IMG/VR virus record: IMGVR_UViG_3300032084_000482
Coordinates: 1 to 25,439 of that record
DNA length: 25,439 bases
Origin: a virus
Direction: 5' to 3' (one strand)
Within the stretch, counting starts at the first letter, position 1. The number at the start of each line of letters is the position of its first letter. Both the position numbers and the translations under genes were made by a program. Under the pieces are notes generated by a model. That model was not told the origin of the DNA. It saw nothing but the letters and a program-made list of their open reading frames with translations, and did not search any database. Shown piece by piece: positions 2,426-13,897 of the stretch.

Positions 2426-2832
2426 CAAAGAAAACATTTAAAGAAATTTATTCTCCAAAAGATAGTGAGAAAGATTTAGAAGAATTTAGACTCATCTCTC
2501 GTCAACAAAGAATCAAACAAGCAAGACGCATGAAAAAACTTGCAAAGAGTGCTGCGTTTAAAACAAAAGTTAAAAGGTCTAAACTTAGAGTTGCAGATCC
2601 AGCAAAACTTCAAGTTAAAGCAAGAAAAGCCGCAAAGAAAAAAGTAGTTGATAGATTTTATCCAAACTATAATGAATTTTCAATCGCAAGAAGAGCTCAA
2701 ACTGACCAAATTATACAGCAAAAATATGGTGGTTTGATTGCAAAACTATCTAAAAGATTACTCATACCCATGAAGAAAAAAGAAATTGAAAAAGTTAAAC
2801 AAGCTAGGCTTGCTAGACAGGAAAAGAAATGA
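2422..2832 (+). CDS. Small lysine/arginine-rich phage protein
   Basis: A 136-residue, strongly basic protein. I chose the ATG at 2422 over the one at 2413 because it forms an ATGA overlap with the preceding stop, the coupling used throughout this operon. The start MTKKTFKEIY resembles the targeting motif of neighbouring proteins, but no L/I-x-E follows at once. The body is almost all helix with many K and R residues, suggesting DNA binding inside the head or a core role. It ends in KQARLARQEKK, echoed by ARQRRLARQEQ in the protein at 11307-11828. It overlaps the next gene by ATGA. No enzyme motif is visible. Function unknown. Confidence 0.7.
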   Translation: MTKKTFKEIYSPKDSEKDLEEFRLISRQQRIKQARRMKKLAKSAAFKTKVKRSKLRVADPAKLQVKARKAAKKKVVDRFYPNYNEFSIARRAQTDQIIQQKYGGLIAKLSKRLLIPMKKKEIEKVKQARLARQEKK

Positions 2833-4742
2833 AAAAATTTAGAGAATTAGTAGAGCAAAAAAACACAATAGTTTTTACTTTTGGTAGATTTAATCCACCA
2901 ACGACTGGGCATGAGAAACTTATACAAAAAGTAAAGAGTGTTGCTGGTTCACAACCATTTCGTATCTATCCATCATTTTCACAGAATCAAAAGAAAGACC
3001 CACTACCACACGCATTGAAGATTGCGTATATGAGAAAGATGTTTCCACAATATGCAAAAAATATAGTCGCAGATAAAAACTCTAGGACTGCAATTGATAT
3101 TGCAGTTAAATTATATGATGAGGGATTTAAAAATTTAACAATGGTGGTAGGCTCTGATAGAGTGAAAGAGTTTCAAAGATTACTTACAACTTACAATGGT
3201 GTTGATGGTAAACGACATGGATACTATAAGTTTGACAATATTAATGTTGTAAGTGCTGGAGAAAGAGATCCAGATGCAGAGGGTGTAGAGGGAATGTCTG
3301 CATCTAAAATGAGAACAGCTGCATCTGATAGTGATTTTGAATCATTTAAAAAAGGACTTCCATCTAATTTTAAAGATGATAAAAAACTTTATCTTGATGT
3401 TCGTAAATACATGGGTATTCGTGAGCAAAGAGATATGGGTGAAATGACAGATATGGAATCACTTAGAGATTTATATTTGACTGGACAGATTTGGAACATA
3501 GACGATTTAGTAGAGGCAAATGGTGTTGAGGGCAGAATAATTCGTAGAGGAACAAATTATGTTGCGTTCAATGATAGAGATGGTAAAGTTCACAAAGCTT
3601 GGCTACATGAAATAACAATAAATGAAATACAAAAAGGATTACGCAGAGTCAAGCAAGATCCAGACATTAAAGGTGATCCAGGCACAGAGCCAGCAAAGTA
3701 TTATAAAGGTGTTGCAAAAAGTAAAAAGAAAGATAGAGATGACCATTTTGAAAAAGGTGCAAAAATGGACGATGATAATCCAGCTGCATATACACCAGCA
3801 CCTGGCGATAAAGATAAATCTGGTAAATTAAAAAAGACTAAACCATCTAAATATACTCTTAAGTATAAGAAAATGTTTGGTGATGAATATGAAATAAATG
3901 AGAAGATTGCTGGACTTGTAAAGAAAGCAGATAAGTCTGGGGTGTCATATTCAATATTGAAACAAGTTTATAATCGTGGTATGGCTGCATGGAGAACTGG
4001 ACATAGGCCAGGCACTACTCCACAGCAATGGGCATTTGCAAGAGTGAACTCATTTTTAACTGGTGGTGGTGCAAGAAAAGCTGATGCAGATTTGTGGACA
4101 AAAGCAAAAGCAAGTAAGAAAAGTAAAAAAGAAGATGTTGAGGTAGCTGCACTATTTAAACCAATTAAAGAAGCACAAGCAGTTGCAAACAATAAAGTTC
4201 ACAGATTCATTAAAGGCCATGGCATAACATACAAAGGTAAAAAATATAAAGAGATTGAGTTTGAAAGAATAAAAATTGATAATGGAAGTAAAACAGTTAC
4301 ATTGAGAATGATTGCACCTAAAGAACTTTTTGGAAAAGAAGTGCCAGTTAGTTTTAGATTCTTGAGGAGAGGGCCTTTTACAAAATTAGAAGTTCCAAAT
4401 GCGTTTGAAGAAAAAACTGAAAAATTAAAAAAATTTAGTGATATGAATGAGTGGGGGCAAATAGTTCAAGAAGCAGAGTATCAAGGACGCAAAGTTAAAT
4501 TAAATGACCCATTTAGATTACCATCTGGTAGCACTAAAAAGTTTGGAGTTTATGTAAAGAATGAAAAAGGTAATATTATAAAGGTTACTTTTGGTGACCC
4601 AAATATGGAAATAAAAAGAGATGACCCTAATCGTAGAAAAAATTTTCGTGCAAGGCATAATTGTGATAATCCAGGCCCTAAAACAAAAGCAAGATATTGG
4701 AGTTGTTTTCAATGGCGCTCTGGTGCAAAGGTAGACAACTAA
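2829..4742 (+). CDS. Multidomain protein with N-terminal NMNAT/cytidylyltransferase-like domain
   Basis: A 637-residue protein. After a targeting-like start MKKFRELVEQ comes a nucleotidylyltransferase domain (about 12-195) with GRFNPPTTGH (19-28, the HxGH-type site) and a second signature M156-S-A-S-K-M-R162 resembling the ISxTxxR motif. This family joins a nucleotide to a phosphate-bearing substrate, as in NMN to NAD or CTP activation. Then follow a small beta-rich segment (about 225-262), a low-complexity linker, a conserved domain at about 356-428 (NRGMAAWRTGHRPGTTPQQW, probably DUF5824), another beta-rich domain (about 450-525) and a C-terminal domain (about 550-630) with RARHNCDNPG and YWSC. 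I-N-E or I-K-E triplets lie in three linkers (264-266, 356-358, 446-448), consistent with prohead-protease processing. ATGA overlap upstream. The substrate cannot be told from sequence. Confidence 0.85.
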   Translation: MKKFRELVEQKNTIVFTFGRFNPPTTGHEKLIQKVKSVAGSQPFRIYPSFSQNQKKDPLPHALKIAYMRKMFPQYAKNIVADKNSRTAIDIAVKLYDEGFKNLTMVVGSDRVKEFQRLLTTYNGVDGKRHGYYKFDNINVVSAGERDPDAEGVEGMSASKMRTAASDSDFESFKKGLPSNFKDDKKLYLDVRKYMGIREQRDMGEMTDMESLRDLYLTGQIWNIDDLVEANGVEGRIIRRGTNYVAFNDRDGKVHKAWLHEITINEIQKGLRRVKQDPDIKGDPGTEPAKYYKGVAKSKKKDRDDHFEKGAKMDDDNPAAYTPAPGDKDKSGKLKKTKPSKYTLKYKKMFGDEYEINEKIAGLVKKADKSGVSYSILKQVYNRGMAAWRTGHRPGTTPQQWAFARVNSFLTGGGARKADADLWTKAKASKKSKKEDVEVAALFKPIKEAQAVANNKVHRFIKGHGITYKGKKYKEIEFERIKIDNGSKTVTLRMIAPKELFGKEVPVSFRFLRRGPFTKLEVPNAFEEKTEKLKKFSDMNEWGQIVQEAEYQGRKVKLNDPFRLPSGSTKKFGVYVKNEKGNIIKVTFGDPNMEIKRDDPNRRKNFRARHNCDNPGPKTKARYWSCFQWRSGAKVDN

Positions 4743-4754
4743 AGGAATGAAAAA

Positions 4755-7637
4755 ATGAGATATACTAACATATCTGACTTATACAGACAAGTAAAAGAAA
4801 GAACACTTACACCTAAAGAACTTGAAGACCGAGAGAAGATTGCAAAAAAATTACCTATGGATGACTTCAAGAAAAGGTATGGTAAAGATGCAATGGCTGT
4901 TAAAATGGCAGTTGCAACTAATATTGCAAAGGGTAAATCAGAAGAAGTTGAGTTAGATGAGTTCAATAAAATGACTGTTACTGTAAATGACCCTAAACAA
5001 AGAAAAAAAGTATTTGATGACTTAAAGAAACAGAAAAGATTAGATGTTTCTATGGGGCCTGGTAAGACTATCAAAGTGGATGGTAAAGGTAAGGCACTAA
5101 ATCTTTTTGCAAAAGACATAATGAATTTTTATGATGCAGAAATCAGAGCAGAAGAAATAGAAGAAGATGCAAAGATGGCTAAACAATCTGATGATAATCT
5201 AAAGTCACTAATGAAAAAGTTTCGTGACATGGAAAAGAAAGACCCAAAGATGCCTTCTACACAGTTTATGATTAAAAGACTTGGTAAAGAAATGAAAAAG
5301 CGTGGACTTAAAGAAGAACAATTAGATGAATTAAGACAACCATTCGTAGTTATTGATACTGCTAGAAATAATCAAGTTATAAGTACATCATCTGATGAAA
5401 TGGGTGCAAAGAGTGCTGTTGCAAGTGCAGAACTTCCACCATTGAATGTTAAAGATAAGAAAACTTTAAAAATTGTTAAAACTCGCAAAAAACAAATGAT
5501 TGGATATCCTCTCAAAGAAGAAACTGAACTTGATGAAGAATTAAAAGGTTTTCAAGTTGACTTTGGTAAAGGTATGAAACAAGGTAAAGCAATTTATAAG
5601 AATAAAAAAGATGCAGAGGAATTTGCAGCTAGAAGAAAAAAGTTGGGTGAATTACCAGTAAAGATTACTCCAACTACTGTTAAAAATGCAAATATGTTTG
5701 ATGACCCAATGGGGCCTAAAAGAAAAAGAATACCAGAAGAAACTGAACTTGATGAAAAGTATGACTTATATCACAAGACATTTTCTGGTGCAATGCAACA
5801 TGCATACGACTATGCAAAGAAAAAGATGGGTATAACAGTAGACCCAAAAGAGATTGACAGTAAAGTTGCAACTGGGCCTAAGAAACCATCTGAGGGTAAA
5901 ACAAACAAATACAGACTCAAAGGTAAAGGTGGTAACTTACAAATTCAAGTACACAATAAAGGTGGCTCAAAACCATTTGAGTTGAATATGTATAAAGAAG
6001 AATTTATTAATGAAGATGGACATGCTGATGTTGCATCTGCAATTCGTCAGTGTAAAACAATTACAGAAGATGCAATGCAAATTATGTCTAAACTTCAAGG
6101 CATGAATCCAGAGGAGTCATTACCAACTTGGTGGACAAACAAACTTGCAGTTGCATCAAACAGTATGAACAAAATGAGAGACTATCTCTTAGTTCCGTCT
6201 ATGAAAGAATCACTTGATAAAGAAGATGAACCTACTGTAAAAAAGGTTGTAAAAATGTTAAAGAAAGCAAGTCAAGCTCACGCTGGACAAGCAAAAGATT
6301 TAGAAAAAGCAATTACTGAGCAACCAGAGCATGAAATCACAGTAGGTAATTATACTACTAAGTTTTTTCACATGTGTGGCTCTGCACAAAAAGTAATGAA
6401 GAAACATGCAGATAAAGATGGTGCAGAAGAACTTACTCGTATGCAAGATGTATTCTATAAGATGGAAAAAGATATTATGATGAATGATGGTGGTGCAAGT
6501 AATAATCAGAAAAAGAAAGCAGAAATACTTTACGATAAAATTATTGCAAAAGCTAAAGAAGTTGGTATTGCAGACGAAGTTGATAAGTATATGAAATTAC
6601 ATTTAACATCTGTAACAAAAGGTGAACCAAAATTAGGATTTGGTAGAACTGATAAGCAAGAGCAAGTAAGTGAAGCTCCAAAAAGAGGAGAATATGCTTT
6701 AGTTCTTAAATCTAATGATAAAATTGCAGATGTTGGTAGTTTAAAAGATATGAGAACACAAAGAAGAAAATTAGGACAAAATAAATATGATGTTTACCCA
6801 TCACAAGGTGGAACACCAGGCGATAACCATAATAAAACTTGTCCACCAGTAAACGAGGAAAATGAAATGAATAAAGATTTAATAGATGCAGCTAAAAAAA
6901 TTATGTTAGGTGAAAAAAAGACTGTACGACAGTTAGTTGATCCTAAAAAAGAAGTCATGGTTGTCAAGAAAAATAATGTAATAGTAATTGACAAAAAAGA
7001 CCAAGACAAGTATATGAAGATGGGATATCAACTCGCAGAAAAAGAAAAACTTGACCCTGTAAATCCAAAGGCTGTCAAAAAGAAGTTTGACGATAGAAAA
7101 GACAAAGACATTGACAATGATGGAGATGTTGATTCTACAGATAAGTATCTTCACAAAAGAAGAAAAGCAATTTCTAAAGCAGTAGCAAAAGAAGAAGTTG
7201 AACTTGATGAATCAATGTCTGGAAAAGAGGTTGCAAAAAGAATGATGAAAATTCAACTGATGAAAGGTTTTGCACCTAAAGTCGCAAAGATGAAAACTGT
7301 AAATCGTAGTGATTTAGAAAAGTTATTACCAGACTTTATTTCTGGTGGTGACATAACTAAAGTTTTACAAAAAGAAAACTATGAGATTGGAAAAGACTAT
7401 GGTAAACATACTAGAGATGTAACTCCAGGCCAATCAAATGATGATTTTGAAAAAATGGTGGATGTCATGCAAAAGAAAAATACAAGTATGCGAGAAGCAC
7501 TTGCAAAAGTTTGGAACACAACAGAGGGTAAAAATCCTTTTGTAAAAAAAGAAGAAAAACCTATGACTAAAACTATGACAGGTAAAACACCAACTAAAGT
7601 TGAAGTTAATCCAGAGGTAAAAGAAGATAAAAAGTGA
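4755..7637 (+). CDS. Modular 960-residue protein with repeated ELDE sites; putative packaged polyprotein
   Basis: A lysine- and glutamate-rich protein built of short, dissimilar modules separated by E-E-x-E-L-D-E-type linkers. L-D-E ends at residues 69, 192, 261, 334 and 819; similar I-E-E, I-N-E and L-A-E triplets end at 137, 420 and 762. This divides the first 420 residues into pieces of 69, 68, 55, 69, 73 and 86. T4 prohead protease gp21 cuts after L/I-x-E, so I infer a precursor cleaved during head maturation. Module 335-420 (HKTFSGAMQHAYDYAKKK) and 421-485 (LPTWWTNKLAVASN, MRDYLLVPS) resemble segments found in other marine T4-like phages. Residues 785-805 resemble a dockerin/EF-hand calcium loop. 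The start has AAGGA nine bases upstream; the GTG of the next gene overlaps the stop. A large scaffold or core protein is an alternative reading. Confidence 0.75.
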   Translation: MRYTNISDLYRQVKERTLTPKELEDREKIAKKLPMDDFKKRYGKDAMAVKMAVATNIAKGKSEEVELDEFNKMTVTVNDPKQRKKVFDDLKKQKRLDVSMGPGKTIKVDGKGKALNLFAKDIMNFYDAEIRAEEIEEDAKMAKQSDDNLKSLMKKFRDMEKKDPKMPSTQFMIKRLGKEMKKRGLKEEQLDELRQPFVVIDTARNNQVISTSSDEMGAKSAVASAELPPLNVKDKKTLKIVKTRKKQMIGYPLKEETELDEELKGFQVDFGKGMKQGKAIYKNKKDAEEFAARRKKLGELPVKITPTTVKNANMFDDPMGPKRKRIPEETELDEKYDLYHKTFSGAMQHAYDYAKKKMGITVDPKEIDSKVATGPKKPSEGKTNKYRLKGKGGNLQIQVHNKGGSKPFELNMYKEEFINEDGHADVASAIRQCKTITEDAMQIMSKLQGMNPEESLPTWWTNKLAVASNSMNKMRDYLLVPSMKESLDKEDEPTVKKVVKMLKKASQAHAGQAKDLEKAITEQPEHEITVGNYTTKFFHMCGSAQKVMKKHADKDGAEELTRMQDVFYKMEKDIMMNDGGASNNQKKKAEILYDKIIAKAKEVGIADEVDKYMKLHLTSVTKGEPKLGFGRTDKQEQVSEAPKRGEYALVLKSNDKIADVGSLKDMRTQRRKLGQNKYDVYPSQGGTPGDNHNKTCPPVNEENEMNKDLIDAAKKIMLGEKKTVRQLVDPKKEVMVVKKNNVIVIDKKDQDKYMKMGYQLAEKEKLDPVNPKAVKKKFDDRKDKDIDNDGDVDSTDKYLHKRRKAISKAVAKEEVELDESMSGKEVAKRMMKIQLMKGFAPKVAKMKTVNRSDLEKLLPDFISGGDITKVLQKENYEIGKDYGKHTRDVTPGQSNDDFEKMVDVMQKKNTSMREALAKVWNTTEGKNPFVKKEEKPMTKTMTGKTPTKVEVNPEVKEDKK
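5516..5756 (+). repeat. 22-bp direct repeat encoding the EETELDE linker
   Basis: The same 22 bases (AGAAGAAACTGAACTTGATG plus AA) occur at 5516-5537 and 5735-5756, inside the coding sequence of the 960-residue protein. Diverged copies of the same coding motif lie near 4938-4961 and 7189-7210. The repeats could allow in-frame deletion or duplication of single modules by recombination. Confidence 0.8.
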
Positions 7638-8149
7638 AATTCATACAGCAATTACTAGAGGTAAATAAAGAAGATTTACCAGAAATTTATTGTGATATGG
7701 ATCAAGTTTTATGTAATTTTATGAAAGGTGCTGATAAAGCAGTTGGAGAACCTTTTATCTATGCAGATAGAGTAGATAGGTGGAAAAAGATTTCAAACAC
7801 GAAAAATTTTTGGGCAAACCTAGAGTGGATGCCTGGAGCAAAAAGATTATATATGAGAATTGAAAAATATAATCCTCACATATTATCTGCATACTCAGAT
7901 CGTGACAATAATTCACGAGCTGGAAAAATGAAGTGGCTAAGTAGAAATACTAACTTTAAAAGAGGTAGAATACATTTGGTAAAAAGAGCACAAAAAAAAG
8001 ATTATGCAACAACAGATGGTAAACCAAATGTTTTAATTGATGATTATATAAAGAATATAAAAGAGTGGGAATCTAATGGTGGAATAGGTGTACATCACAC
8101 AAGTGTTAGTAAAACAATGGGTGAACTTAACAGATTAGGTTTTAAATAA
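7634..8149 (+). CDS. HAD-superfamily 5'(3')-nucleotidase-like phosphatase
   Basis: A 171-residue protein. After a short leader MKFIQQLLEV, which fits a targeting sequence ending in L-L-E, comes a HAD phosphatase core. Motif I is D21-M-D23-Q-V-L; a serine at 85 in HILSAYS acts as motif II; lysines around 117-122 fit motif III; I-D136-D137 fits motif IV. The first aspartate forms the phospho-intermediate and the others bind Mg. The size and motif layout match bacterial and phage 5'(3')-deoxyribonucleotidase-type proteins that dephosphorylate nucleoside monophosphates. Translation starts at a GTG that overlaps the previous stop (GTGA). The combination of an enzyme with a head-targeting leader is odd and suggests virion packaging. 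The enzyme class is secure; the substrate and packaging are inferred. Confidence 0.85.
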   Translation: MKFIQQLLEVNKEDLPEIYCDMDQVLCNFMKGADKAVGEPFIYADRVDRWKKISNTKNFWANLEWMPGAKRLYMRIEKYNPHILSAYSDRDNNSRAGKMKWLSRNTNFKRGRIHLVKRAQKKDYATTDGKPNVLIDDYIKNIKEWESNGGIGVHHTSVSKTMGELNRLGFK

Positions 8150-9879: not shown

Positions 9880-10338
9880 ATGAAATCATTTAAAAAGTAC
9901 ATCAAAGAAGAAAATAGAGGACTCAGTAGAATGGGTGGTGTTGGAGTTGGAACGACACATTCTCAAGCAGTTGATATGAATATCAATCCAGCTGCGATTT
10001 CAAATCCAAATGTTATTAGAAGATTAAACGCATATGTTGGTGCAATTGCAAACATGGAGTATATGTTACCAGAGCATGCACTAAACAAATTAAAAGAAAA
10101 ATTAGGTAGACTTGGTTTTTCTTTTGGACAGATTCCAGAGATGACAGAAAAAAGTGGTTCATTTGATTTACCATTATCCTTGTTTGGTGGAAGATATGGA
10201 AAAGATTTAGATACACCAGCCGATGAAATTATAAATGACGATGGTATATCAAACAAAATTGAGGGTGGTTTAGCACTAAAAATACAGTATGAAATGACAA
10301 GTAATAATAGCTGTAAGGTGTTTGCCAAAGTAGAATAA
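9880..10338 (+). CDS. Putative head-targeted phage protein
   Basis: A 152-residue protein. I chose the start at ATG 9880 because the upstream in-frame extension would be translated from the terminator hairpin. The N-terminus MKSFKKYIKEE is one of the clearest matches in the window to the T4 internal-protein targeting sequence, with I-K-E as the predicted protease site. Residues after about 20 (MGGVGVGTTHSQAVDMNINP) lead into a helical region and then a segment (FDLPLSLFGGRYGKD). The C-terminal part (GGLALKIQYEMTSNNSCKVFAKVE) looks like a beta strand pair. No known enzymatic motif is seen. It shares a TAATG overlap with the next gene. I propose packaging in the head; function unknown. Confidence 0.75.
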   Translation: MKSFKKYIKEENRGLSRMGGVGVGTTHSQAVDMNINPAAISNPNVIRRLNAYVGAIANMEYMLPEHALNKLKEKLGRLGFSFGQIPEMTEKSGSFDLPLSLFGGRYGKDLDTPADEIINDDGISNKIEGGLALKIQYEMTSNNSCKVFAKVE

Positions 10339-10700: not shown

Positions 10701-11314
10701 TGGGAAGAGCGATAGATTTATTTGTTACATACAGATTTATCAAATTACTTACAACACCATTTCAAAAAACTGATGCATTTAAACTTGGCATCATAGATGA
10801 AAATGGTAATCGTATTCGTCAACCCAATTCTACAAAACCAGCTGTTGAGCTTGCTACAACAGAACAAAAAAACGCATACACAATACTTCACAAATTAGTT
10901 TTCAATATCAAAAAATTATTTGCAAAAGTGCCAGGCTTAAGAACTAAAGTTGGAACTTATGCAGCTGCACTATTTTTACTCAAAGATACATTCAAGGAGC
11001 ATGTTGAAGATCCAGATATGTTTGAAAAAGAATTTATGAAATACTTAAAAGAAAATGATGTAGAATTAGATAACTCTATATCAGAAGAAGTTATAGGATT
11101 TGGTGAGATATTACCAAAAGGTGAGTATGTTCTAATTAATGATATTCTAAATAAAGAAGAAGAAGAATTAACTGCAAAAAAAGGTGATAAAGTTATTGCA
11201 TTTGATGATGAATCACCAATTGATACAGTTTTGGGTGTTGAGATATTTCCAGTAGTGCATGATAAAACCCAAGAAAAAATTTATGTAAGTTTAGAGGATA
11301 TTAAAAATGGGTAA
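10700..11314 (+). CDS. Conserved T4-like phage protein, possible structural
   Basis: A 204-residue protein beginning MGRAIDLFVTYRFIKLLTTPF, a start familiar from hypothetical proteins in marine T4-like phages. Residues 1-110 are largely helical, with a central helix KVGTYAAALFLLKD that could be buried or membrane-interacting. The C-terminal part (about 120-200) is acidic and stranded, with KGEYVLINDIL and IFPVVHDKTQEKIYVSLEDI. No catalytic motif, signal peptide or targeting leader is visible. The start codon overlaps the upstream stop (TAATG) and the gene overlaps the next by eight bases. The conserved gene order with the 10338 protein suggests a shared role, probably in virion assembly, but this is inference. 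Confidence 0.75.
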   Translation: MGRAIDLFVTYRFIKLLTTPFQKTDAFKLGIIDENGNRIRQPNSTKPAVELATTEQKNAYTILHKLVFNIKKLFAKVPGLRTKVGTYAAALFLLKDTFKEHVEDPDMFEKEFMKYLKENDVELDNSISEEVIGFGEILPKGEYVLINDILNKEEEELTAKKGDKVIAFDDESPIDTVLGVEIFPVVHDKTQEKIYVSLEDIKNG

Positions 11315-11834: not shown

Positions 11835-13085
11835 ATGAAAACATTTCAAGAGTATTACTCAAATTCTTTAGACACATATCCTTATGGTGGCGCATCAGTT
11901 GGGCCAGGAATGGGGCAATATGTTCCAGTTGCAGATCTTAATTTAAGAGCTCAAAAAGAAAAAGAAGTAAAAAAATCAGACATTGACCAACTTGAAAAAT
12001 ATGCAGATAGATTATTTGGTGCAGTTGGTATAGATGTAGAATTTACACGACACTTTCTTGATCGTGTTAATGATGCAAGAAATAAAGTTCAAATCACACC
12101 ATCAGAACTCACTCGTCTATTCAGACAATCCTATAAAAAGTTTGGTAAAAGAATTGCAAAGTTAGGCCCTGATGCAGAGGCAGTTATTACGGATATGAAA
12201 ACTGATATCAACATGCCTTTTGTTTTAAATTTAAAAGGTGGTGAATTAGAACTCATTGCAAAAACTGTAATGAGAAAGAAAGACTTTAAAACACAAAATC
12301 CAAAACTTGCATTTGAGGGTATCGGAGAGCCAAACATATTCAGTCAAAAGAATCCTAGAATACCAAGAAAAAAAGGACAGCCAGCAAAGTCAAAGAAACA
12401 TTCTGATTTATATACAGATGAAGACCCAAAGGGAACAATACATGGCTTAGGTTTTAAAGATGTCGCAACTGCAAGAGCAAGTGTTAAAAAAATAGAATCA
12501 TCTGGTAGAACACACGCACATAAAATACAAGCTGCAATCGCAATGGAGCAAAGAGCAAGAGTGATGGGAAAAACAGCAGAGGCAAATGTTTATCGTGCAT
12601 ATATTGAAAAAATGAAAAAGAAAACTAAAGAGATGAGAAAAGAAGATGCACATGGTTTTAACTGCCCGCCTGGATATAAATTTGATAAAAAATTAATGGC
12701 ATGTGTTCCAAAGAAAACAAAATTTAAAACAGTATATGCATATCCATATTTTGGTGGTGGAACTAAGAGTGGAGACCAATCTGGAGAAACACAGAGTGGA
12801 CAAAATGGAAATGGGAATGGTAATGGTGGTAATGGTAATGGTAATGGTGGTAATGGTAATGGTGGAAATGGTGGTAATGGTGCAAGTGGAGGAGAATCAT
12901 ACATAGTTGCAGATGTAAGAAAGATGTCTGGTGGTGGATATGGTGTATACGCAGATAAGTTCGTTAAAGGCAAAAGAGTTACACTACCAAGTGGTAAGCA
13001 CGCAAAAGAACTTAAAAAAGTTTATCGTAGTAAAGAAAAGGCAAATAAATACATGGCTGCGATTATGATAGGAAAAGGTGGGTAA
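11835..13085 (+). CDS. Head-targeted multidomain protein with Gly/Asn linker
   Basis: A 416-residue protein. Its N-terminus MKTFQEYYSN is nearly the T4 internal-protein leader MKTYQEFIAE. Domain A (about 66-160) starts FTRHFLDRVNDARN and ends in TVMRKKDFKTQNP, compact and mixed alpha/beta. Domain B (about 190-262) contains YTDEDPKGTIHGLGF, SSGRTHAHKIQAAIAMEQRA and YRAYIEKMKKK, a module I have seen in other phage and bacterial proteins of unknown function. A CPPGYKFDKKLMAC segment (277-290) may bind metal or form a disulfide. A flexible linker made of glycine and asparagine (about 313-353) leads to a C-terminal domain (354-412; GGYGVYADKFVKGKRVTLPS). It shares TAATG with the next gene. The modular layout suits a packaged, possibly processed protein. 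No activity can be assigned. Confidence 0.75.
   Translation: MKTFQEYYSNSLDTYPYGGASVGPGMGQYVPVADLNLRAQKEKEVKKSDIDQLEKYADRLFGAVGIDVEFTRHFLDRVNDARNKVQITPSELTRLFRQSYKKFGKRIAKLGPDAEAVITDMKTDINMPFVLNLKGGELELIAKTVMRKKDFKTQNPKLAFEGIGEPNIFSQKNPRIPRKKGQPAKSKKHSDLYTDEDPKGTIHGLGFKDVATARASVKKIESSGRTHAHKIQAAIAMEQRARVMGKTAEANVYRAYIEKMKKKTKEMRKEDAHGFNCPPGYKFDKKLMACVPKKTKFKTVYAYPYFGGGTKSGDQSGETQSGQNGNGNGNGGNGNGNGGNGNGGNGGNGASGGESYIVADVRKMSGGGYGVYADKFVKGKRVTLPSGKHAKELKKVYRSKEKANKYMAAIMIGKGG
12802..12883 (+). repeat. Low-complexity GGTAATGGT repeat encoding Gly/Asn linker
   Basis: Imperfect tandem repeats of GGTAAT and GGTAATGGT encode a run of N-G, G-N-G and G-G units. The unit length is a multiple of three, so slippage changes linker length without breaking the frame. 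The matching minus-strand open frame rich in proline is a shadow. Confidence 0.9.
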
Positions 13086-13897
13086 TGAAAACATTTAAAC
13101 AGTTTACTGAAAGTCTTTGGGCAAACATCCATAAAAAAAGACAGAGAATCAAAAGAGGCTCTGGTGAAAAAATGAGAAAAGTTGGTGATAAAGGAGCTCC
13201 TACACCAGCACAGATGAGGCGTGCAAAAGGTGAGGGATTTCGTGAGGAAATGAAATGTCCGCCTGCAACTCAAAATTTAAAGATTAATACAAAAAACAGA
13301 GATGCAACAATTAAAAACTATAACTATGGCCCTCTGAATGTTGATGAGCCAGGCGACTACTGGAAAAAAATTGCAAGATATTGGAAAACAACTGAACAAG
13401 CTGCAAAGAAGTCTGTATGTAATAACTGTGTTGCGTTTGATGTTTCACCAAGAATGTTAGAGTGTTTACCAGGCGAAACATCTGATAAAGATGGTCGTTT
13501 AGGTTATTGTTGGATGCATCACTTTAAGTGTCATTCTGCAAGAGCGTGTCATACTTGGGCAAAGGGTGGCCCAATTACAACAGATAAGAAATCACATGAT
13601 TGGCAAGAGCGTGCAAAGATGACAGAAAGTGGCCACACGCAACTTGCAAAAACAAATATAAGACAAAAAAGAGAATTAGAAAGATTAAAGGTGCAACACG
13701 ATAGAGAGGACGATAGAGCAAGAAGTCAAGATGTTGCAAGAAAAAATATTCAAACAGAAAAAGCACCTAACACATCAGATGCAATGAAAAGATATAAATC
13801 AGGTAAAGCAGGATTTACTGACATCGCACATTTAAAAGCAAAAGGTTTAATTAAAAGAAGTGATGGAACAAAAAGAAAATCTGATAAATATAAGTAA
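13085..13897 (+). CDS. Head-targeted cysteine-rich phage protein, possible Fe-S or zinc site
   Basis: A 270-residue basic protein. It starts MKTFKQFTES, again the targeting-like leader, followed by an arginine/lysine-rich stretch (ANIHKKRQRIKRGSGEKMRK) frequent in marine T4-like phages. The central domain (about 58-170) has C112-x2-C115-x11-C127-x14-C142 with G-Y-C-W around C142, and then C149 and C155 with several histidines. The four-cysteine spacing resembles high-potential iron-sulfur proteins (C-x2-C-x~16-C-x~13-C with G-[YW]-C), although zinc binding is as likely. The C-terminal third is a charged helix (about 185-225) and a short basic tail. It begins in a TAATG overlap with the previous gene. 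The family is recognisable as a phage domain, but the cofactor is inference. Confidence 0.75.
   Translation: MKTFKQFTESLWANIHKKRQRIKRGSGEKMRKVGDKGAPTPAQMRRAKGEGFREEMKCPPATQNLKINTKNRDATIKNYNYGPLNVDEPGDYWKKIARYWKTTEQAAKKSVCNNCVAFDVSPRMLECLPGETSDKDGRLGYCWMHHFKCHSARACHTWAKGGPITTDKKSHDWQERAKMTESGHTQLAKTNIRQKRELERLKVQHDREDDRARSQDVARKNIQTEKAPNTSDAMKRYKSGKAGFTDIAHLKAKGLIKRSDGTKRKSDKYK
13889..13896 (+). promoter_or_regulatory. Possible variant late promoter
   Basis: TATAAGTA differs by one base from the late promoter box. It overlaps the end of the cysteine-rich protein gene and lies 26 bases before the C1q-like gene, the same distance as at 2 and 8151. The position supports it; the mismatch weakens it. 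Confidence 0.4.

Follow-up and report, generated by a model that had tools for sequence, protein, structure and literature searches.

The T4 proteins IPI, IPII, IPIII and Alt each carry an N-terminal leader (MKTYQEFIAE or MKTFKEFT in T4) with a cut tripeptide near residues 8-10; there is one protein per gene and a single leader that is removed. IPIII starts, according to the T4 record, with MKTYQEFIAE/A (here and below, the slash marks the cut or putative cut), and its first ten residues are enough for packaging (PMC9026906). The protease gp21 cuts after L/I-x-E (PMC9026906). Two other described systems come close to the locus studied here: In the polyvalent proteins described by Iyer et al. 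(2017, PMC5512222) and in Dar of phage P1, each chain contains many domains, for which injection and separate action have been proposed; some of these proteins are known to be processed, and an explicit comparison with polyproteins has been made (PMC5512222). In the giant phages phiKZ and SPN3US, a prohead protease related to gp21 makes several cuts per propeptide (PMC5694885, PMC10052503).

In this work, we have analysed a gene of an uncultivated virus (IMG/VR record IMGVR_UViG_3300032084_000482) in a window that comprises the whole stretch of 25,439 nucleotides. Its product is likely to be a head-targeted precursor from which gp21 would release about 13 small, mostly basic internal head proteins of a T4-type marine phage. 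This would be an enlarged version of the strategy that T4 follows with its internal proteins, with cleavage and injection both being inferred.

Results

The open reading frame at 4755-7637 of the window (plus strand, as for the sites and leader-bearing genes of the window given below) encodes a protein of 960 amino acids with about 13 modules, the polyprotein, and lies between a cytidylyltransferase and a nucleotidase gene. The polyprotein contains seven [LI]xE sites in an acidic context: EEVELDE at residues 63-69 (4941-4961) and 813-819 (7191-7211), IEE at 135-137 (5157-5165), EEQLDE at 187-192 (5313-5330), EETELDE at 255-261 (5517-5537) and 328-334 (5736-5756), and FINE at 417-420 (INE, 418-420, 6006-6014). 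A preliminary description had claimed repeated ELDE-type sites, and this held, with all sites at the positions given there. It was incomplete in two respects. First, it left the 393 residues from 421 to 813 undivided, and this stretch contains further junctions, MKE-485, ITE-522 (residues 520-522, 6312-6320), VSE-640 (638-640, 6666-6674) and LAE-762 (760-762, 7032-7040), which we call junctions because the modules of relatives begin or end there. Second, the motif extends beyond this gene: EExELDE-type sites also run through the homologs of the neighbouring genes and through many other carriers. LDE occurs five times in the polyprotein as compared to a mean of 0.41 and a maximum of 4 in 5000 shuffled sequences, the EExELDE-like pattern six times (shuffle mean 0.00, maximum 2), and [LI]xE 15 times in total (shuffle mean 8.3, P 0.013). 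The protein has a net charge of +39, and the majority of the modules are basic: 10 of 13 predicted products are positively charged as cut, and 12 of 13 if their last 8 residues are omitted. Searches of Pfam, PHROGs, NCBIfam and PDB sequences returned almost nothing for the polyprotein; only PHROGs families without known function touch it.

Three of the sites are doublets: LKE-EQLDE (residues 185-192, window 5307-5330, with GLKE-187), LKE-ETELDE (253-261, 5511-5537, with PLKE-255) and IPE-ETELDE (326-334, 5730-5756, with RIPE-328). Both cuts at such a site would free a short acidic peptide. Behind LAE-762, there is an EF-hand-like module with the pattern DxDNDGDxD (DKDIDNDGDVDSTDKYLHKRRKAI, residues 764-808, window 7044-7178) that is shared with the phages HTVC008M and P-HM1/P-HM2 and that is possibly a metal-binding module.

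Relatives were gathered by tblastn and pattern searches, and about 160 further loci came from two scans using the flanking cytidylyltransferase and nucleotidase genes, so that about 170 relative loci were compared in all. The matches of relatives are bounded by the motifs: They cover residues 63-193 in locus L006 and 63-332 in L004, with homology breaking at EEVELDE 63-69 in both, and an isolate, the Methylophilales phage Melnitz, matches residues 328-414. When searched singly, the modules recur in other genes and in other orders, and acidic [LI]xE sites border them. The module at residues 138-184, which stands behind IEE here, follows EEVDLDE in L107. In L095, the YDLYHK module is flanked by EEVELDE and YKEEVELDE; in L063, L112 and L118, it forms the C-terminal end of proteins homologous to the product of the window gene at 11307. 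The cytidylyltransferase gene of L008 has the QPEHEI module after EIDE, and the module at junction ITE 520-522 is the same as that behind EIDE in this gene. Moreover, the order M6-M11-M7 in L149 differs from the order M6-M7-M8-M9-M11 in the polyprotein. Related phages shuffle the same modules between genes, and between one another, at [LI]xE seams.

Two tests addressed where homology starts and stops. In the fragment test, 128 non-redundant carriers were cut in silico at their 417 sites; this yielded 316 reciprocal full-length fragment matches as compared to 40-48 for random and 167-231 for shifted cuts, and 34 of 81 module families had at least two different neighbours on each side. However, cuts at acidic patches without [LI]xE gave 200-308 reciprocal fragments, i.e. 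little separation from the 316. Since this test cannot separate acidic patches from sites, our claim of seams rests on the breakpoint test, which used 5959 ungapped, non-collinear homology breakpoints among carriers. (The ends of gapped all-against-all BLAST matches were enriched but blurred as a boundary test and were dropped in favour of these breakpoints.) Breakpoints are enriched 2.4-fold at [LI]xE for right ends (0.373 vs. 0.156) and 2.0-fold for left ends, 3.1-fold (0.142 vs. 0.046) and 2.0-fold, respectively, at LDE, and about 1.6-fold at [VMF]xE. There is no enrichment of breakpoints at acidic patches lacking [LIVMF]xE (ratios 0.99 and 1.11), at [LI]xK (0.83, 0.91) or at [LI]xD (1.09, 1.08). 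In an alignment of 43 mostly dissimilar carriers, motifs of the EEVELDE type are nearly the sole consensus. (A MAFFT alignment of all module fragments to the polyprotein misplaced many of them, and the cleaner subsets A6 and A7 were used instead.) We regard it as very likely that the protein is a modular polyprotein with its seams at gp21-type sites. Within modules, [LI]xE is not depleted (139 observed vs. 134.5 expected from composition); therefore, folding or a longer acidic motif must determine which sites are cut.

The DNA of the seam is conserved as well. The 20-mer GAAGAAGTTGAACTTGATGA, found e.g. at 7191-7210 of the window (seam DNA of the site EEVELDE 813-819: GAAGAAGTTGAACTTGATGAA), keeps its synonymous sites in dissimilar contexts of many viral contigs. 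Codon choice at 74 seam sites with dissimilar flanks was compared to the usage in the same genes: The seam leucine codon is CTT in 57 of 69 cases (background 32%, P 6e-18), and the seam valine codon is GTT in 46 of 50 (background 52%, P 1e-9). In 336 of 336 cases (197 near matches in unbiased loci and 139 exact matches), the 20-mer is read in the EEVELDE frame within a long open reading frame; the exact matches stem from loci fetched by the 20-mer. Judged from sequence alone, the peptide is the form that is used, and its DNA has either spread together with the modules or been retained as their recombination seam, two options that cannot be distinguished here.

AlphaFold predicts modules M4 and M5 to be folded in a model of residues 245-421, with pLDDT values below 50 around the sites 255-261, 328-334 and 418-420. 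In the full-length model, M4 and M8 reach 77-92 in most blocks, and the low-confidence stretches (58-70, 121-136, 190-260, 317-335, 413-430 and 765-817) cover most of the listed sites. This model is limited since its mean pLDDT is only 50.9; several modules had no alignment in it, and low confidence does not prove disorder, least of all in those modules. The best-supported modules, M4 and M8, are thus folded according to prediction. ELDE motifs inside folded cores had been named beforehand as a finding that would refute the polyprotein reading: No listed site lies in a confidently folded core in the two AlphaFold models, both of modest overall confidence. Searches of Pfam, NCBIfam and PDB sequences and with Foldseek brought no convincing hit that would assign functions to the modules. 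Weak matches of other carriers to SutA-RBD, HNH and RMF were not relied on, and the resemblance of M4 to stand-alone phage proteins of 46-61 residues reaches merely E values of 0.07-0.6.

The polyprotein gene is part of a cluster that is conserved in Melnitz, Pelagibacter phage HTVC008M, P-HM2 and other cyanophages, in the order DUF6267 protein, cytidylyltransferase, modular proteins and, in several phages, nucleotidase; the genes of primase and ribonucleotide reductase come next. In the window, putative leaders of the form MKxFxxxLxE, which resemble that of T4 IPIII, are found on the DUF6267 protein (1184-2425, MITFTELLTE/Q), the cytidylyltransferase/NMNAT-like protein (2829-4742, MKKFRELVE/Q), the nucleotidase (7634-8149, MKFIQQLLE/V) and a protein of unknown function (9880-10338, MKSFKKYIKE/E). 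In the gene at 13085-13897, the leader MKTFKQFTE directly precedes the SLWANIHKK module; in L005, this module lies within the cytidylyltransferase gene. The cytidylyltransferase of the window has modules of its own after EITINE-266 and EYEINE-358, and its residues 288-419 match DUF5824. A tripeptide [LIVFM]xE ending at residues 8-12 is present in 219 of 278 homologs of four cluster genes (DUF6267 64/75, cytidylyltransferase 73/93, nucleotidase 36/61, gene 9880 46/49) as compared to 10 of 205 homologs of seven control genes from the same loci. The leader of the polyprotein itself is atypical: The putative head-targeting leader MRYTNISDLYRQVKE (4755-4799), with a possible cut after the VKE at residues 13-15, is a variant of the T4 leader and weaker than those of the sister genes. 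In polyprotein relatives, the leader reads M[TS]xYxxTMxEALxE.

The putative leaders also include MTRYNKTMSEALSE and MKNFKNHIAE. In relatives, the gene downstream of the polyprotein gene (e.g. L124:9239, L006:5951) bears a leader of a third type, M(A/G)xYxxTKxGSLEEA; the C-terminal module of this gene is fused onto the end of the polyprotein in the window. The P-loop kinase-like protein gp129 of HTVC008M (L296:6563-7225) starts with MIPFILKE/GLYD and is possibly a packaged kinase.

The sites of the polyprotein fit the published L/I-x-E rule, with the cut after E. The protease gp21 (PF03420, Peptidase_S77) is encoded by Melnitz and by the contig of L008 as well as by 8 of 12 further relative contigs, including all six motif-bearing contigs above 100 kb. 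It was found neither in the 25-kb window nor in a 60-kb contig from this phage, which are both genome fragments. In Melnitz, where the polyprotein is gp20 (QZI94753.1) and gp21 is QZI94933.1, gp23 has a fitting gp21 site, FLSE/AAP, and a separate gp22 gene adjoins gp21. For this protein family, we found no report of cleavage, no cleavage product and no semi-tryptic peptide in the literature searched.

Homologs of the cluster proteins have been found in virions. The cytidylyltransferase T4-GC190 was detected by mass spectrometry in S-SM1 virions (Sullivan et al. 2010, PMC3037559), and NMNAT/cytidylyltransferase-like proteins were reported in virions of S-SCSM1 (PMC9602691) and S-CREM2 (PMC10665884, Table 3). 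In S-CREM2 virions, the neighbours gp155, gp156 and gp160 were also detected (PMC10665884); the authors warn that such proteins are possibly contaminants or carry-over (PMC10665884). Our analysis identified gp160 as modular, with EENLEE and EETEISE before modules of the CWPGYEKKGTK and ACYHKVKARYD type, and gp154 of the same phage starts with MKNFSSFLTE/ADEK. As a separate observation, gp160 (L175:14343-15236) contains GFTGAAAPEGPVAGYDPLM, which closely resembles the segment right after the gp23 cut site of this phage (GFTGAAAPGGPNAGFDPVM).

Discussion

We suggest the following sequence of events. The leader would take the precursor into the prohead core, and during head maturation, gp21 would cut after the E of every exposed site. 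The folded, mostly basic modules would remain in the head beside the DNA and would enter the host upon infection, each as a small effector of its own, and the conserved seam would be the place where recombination adds or swaps modules. With about 13 modules in a single precursor, one gene would therefore supply as many different proteins, all in the same amount. In our judgement, it is likely that the polyprotein is packaged in the head, and likewise likely that it is cut at its seams by gp21, even though no cut has been observed. That the modules are injected as effectors is inferred, and we only lean towards this step. The preliminary description had read the gene as a precursor of many small internal proteins released by a gp21-type protease. 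The presence of gp21 in relatives, the site rule, the swappable modules, the leaders of the sister genes and the virion homologs support this reading; it remains unproven, and the support is by inference only, since the cut is unreported and the gp21 of this phage lies outside the 25-kb fragment.

It is tempting to speculate further that marine T4-type phages share an exchangeable library of dozens of effector modules that are strung into polyproteins and cut by the head protease in the capsid, with the cut-site DNA GAAGAAGTTGAACTTGATGA being the recombination seam. One short sequence would then serve both protein maturation and gene shuffling. At present, we are slightly more inclined to doubt this bolder reading than to accept it.

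If the proposed model is true, it has several implications. A head-targeting leader of the T4 type would explain the presence of cytidylyltransferase/NMNAT-like enzymes and of many 'hypothetical' proteins in cyanophage virions. The abundant ocean phages of Methylophilales, Pelagibacter, Synechococcus and Prochlorococcus may deliver to their hosts, by injection, sets of small proteins that are large and change quickly. Finally, the leader together with the [LI]xE seams would be a sequence rule that predicts packaged proteins and their exact fragments, and as most modules match no described family, this rule would yield a catalogue of candidate host-takeover proteins.

Three other explanations have to be considered. 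First, the polyprotein might be a sacrificial core or scaffold protein that, like gp22, gp67 and gp68 of T4, enters the prohead and is cut by gp21, with the pieces leaving and the modules having no function in the host. In favour of this idea, gp22 and other core proteins are likewise cut at many L/I-x-E sites (PMC9026906), and the leaders imply an association with the core. However, the best-supported modules are predicted to be folded, modules are exchanged as units and are present in enzyme genes too, Melnitz has its separate gp22 gene beside gp21, and the modular gp160 and the cytidylyltransferase have been detected in virions. We therefore consider this explanation unlikely. Second, the protein might be an uncut multidomain virion protein, similar to polyvalent proteins, with the acidic motif merely serving as a flexible linker. 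Indeed, acidic linkers are common, polyvalent proteins of other phages have 2-15 domains, the N4 vRNAP is packaged unprocessed (PMC5512222), and [LI]xE is not depleted inside the modules. This explanation is improbable as well: The breakpoints track [LI]xE in particular, which other acidic patches do not match, the tripeptide fits the rule of a protease that is present in related phages, and this tripeptide also closes the leaders of the sister genes, at the place where T4 has it. Finally, the idea that the seam is kept as DNA, i.e. as a recombination linker or site, with the protein motif being incidental, can draw on the synonymous conservation across dissimilar flanks but is very unlikely given that all matches share a single frame within a long open reading frame, that IEE, FINE, EEQLDE and ITE differ in their DNA yet mark junctions, and that the leaders have the tripeptide without the seam DNA.

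The reading as a precursor of internal head proteins invites comparison with the systems introduced above. With the T4 internal proteins, the cluster shares the leader on the sister genes, the L/I-x-E rule, products that are predicted to be small and basic, pronounced variation from phage to phage and, in relatives, gp21. No sequence homology of the polyprotein to IPI, IPII, IPIII or Alt was found, and Pfam, PHROGs and NCBIfam yielded no match to a named family; hence, we class it as working like the internal proteins and not as a homologous member. With the scaffold and core protein gp22, the polyprotein shares many L/I-x-E sites per chain and an expected place in the prohead core. There is no gp22 match in the polyprotein (Pfam, PHROGs), and gp22 of Melnitz is located elsewhere in the genome. 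In the polyprotein and 43 further carriers, Pfam found none of the catalytic domains of polyvalent proteins (MPTase, ART, ParB, helicase). A chain of exchangeable mature modules has not been described for T4, the giant phages (PMC5694885, PMC10052503) or the polyvalent proteins (PMC5512222) in the literature searched, and this literature, which leaves out preprints and most subscription papers, contained no earlier account of capsid targeting sequences (CTS) or of polyproteins for marine phages of the T4 type.

The polyprotein differs from each of these systems. Whereas the T4 internal proteins carry only their removed leader, the polyprotein has many modules in a chain, with sites between them, that are reshuffled among genes. 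After cutting, the peptides of T4 gp22 mostly leave the head, whereas the modules of the polyprotein are exchanged as units, and two or more of them are predicted to be folded. For the polyprotein, as opposed to polyvalent proteins, cutting would rely on the head protease acting at uniform sites rather than on a built-in peptidase. In phiKZ and SPN3US, the cuts strip long propeptides off single mature proteins, whereas the polyprotein would be a chain of exchangeable mature modules. The conserved synonymous DNA of the seam, always in frame, is newly seen here.
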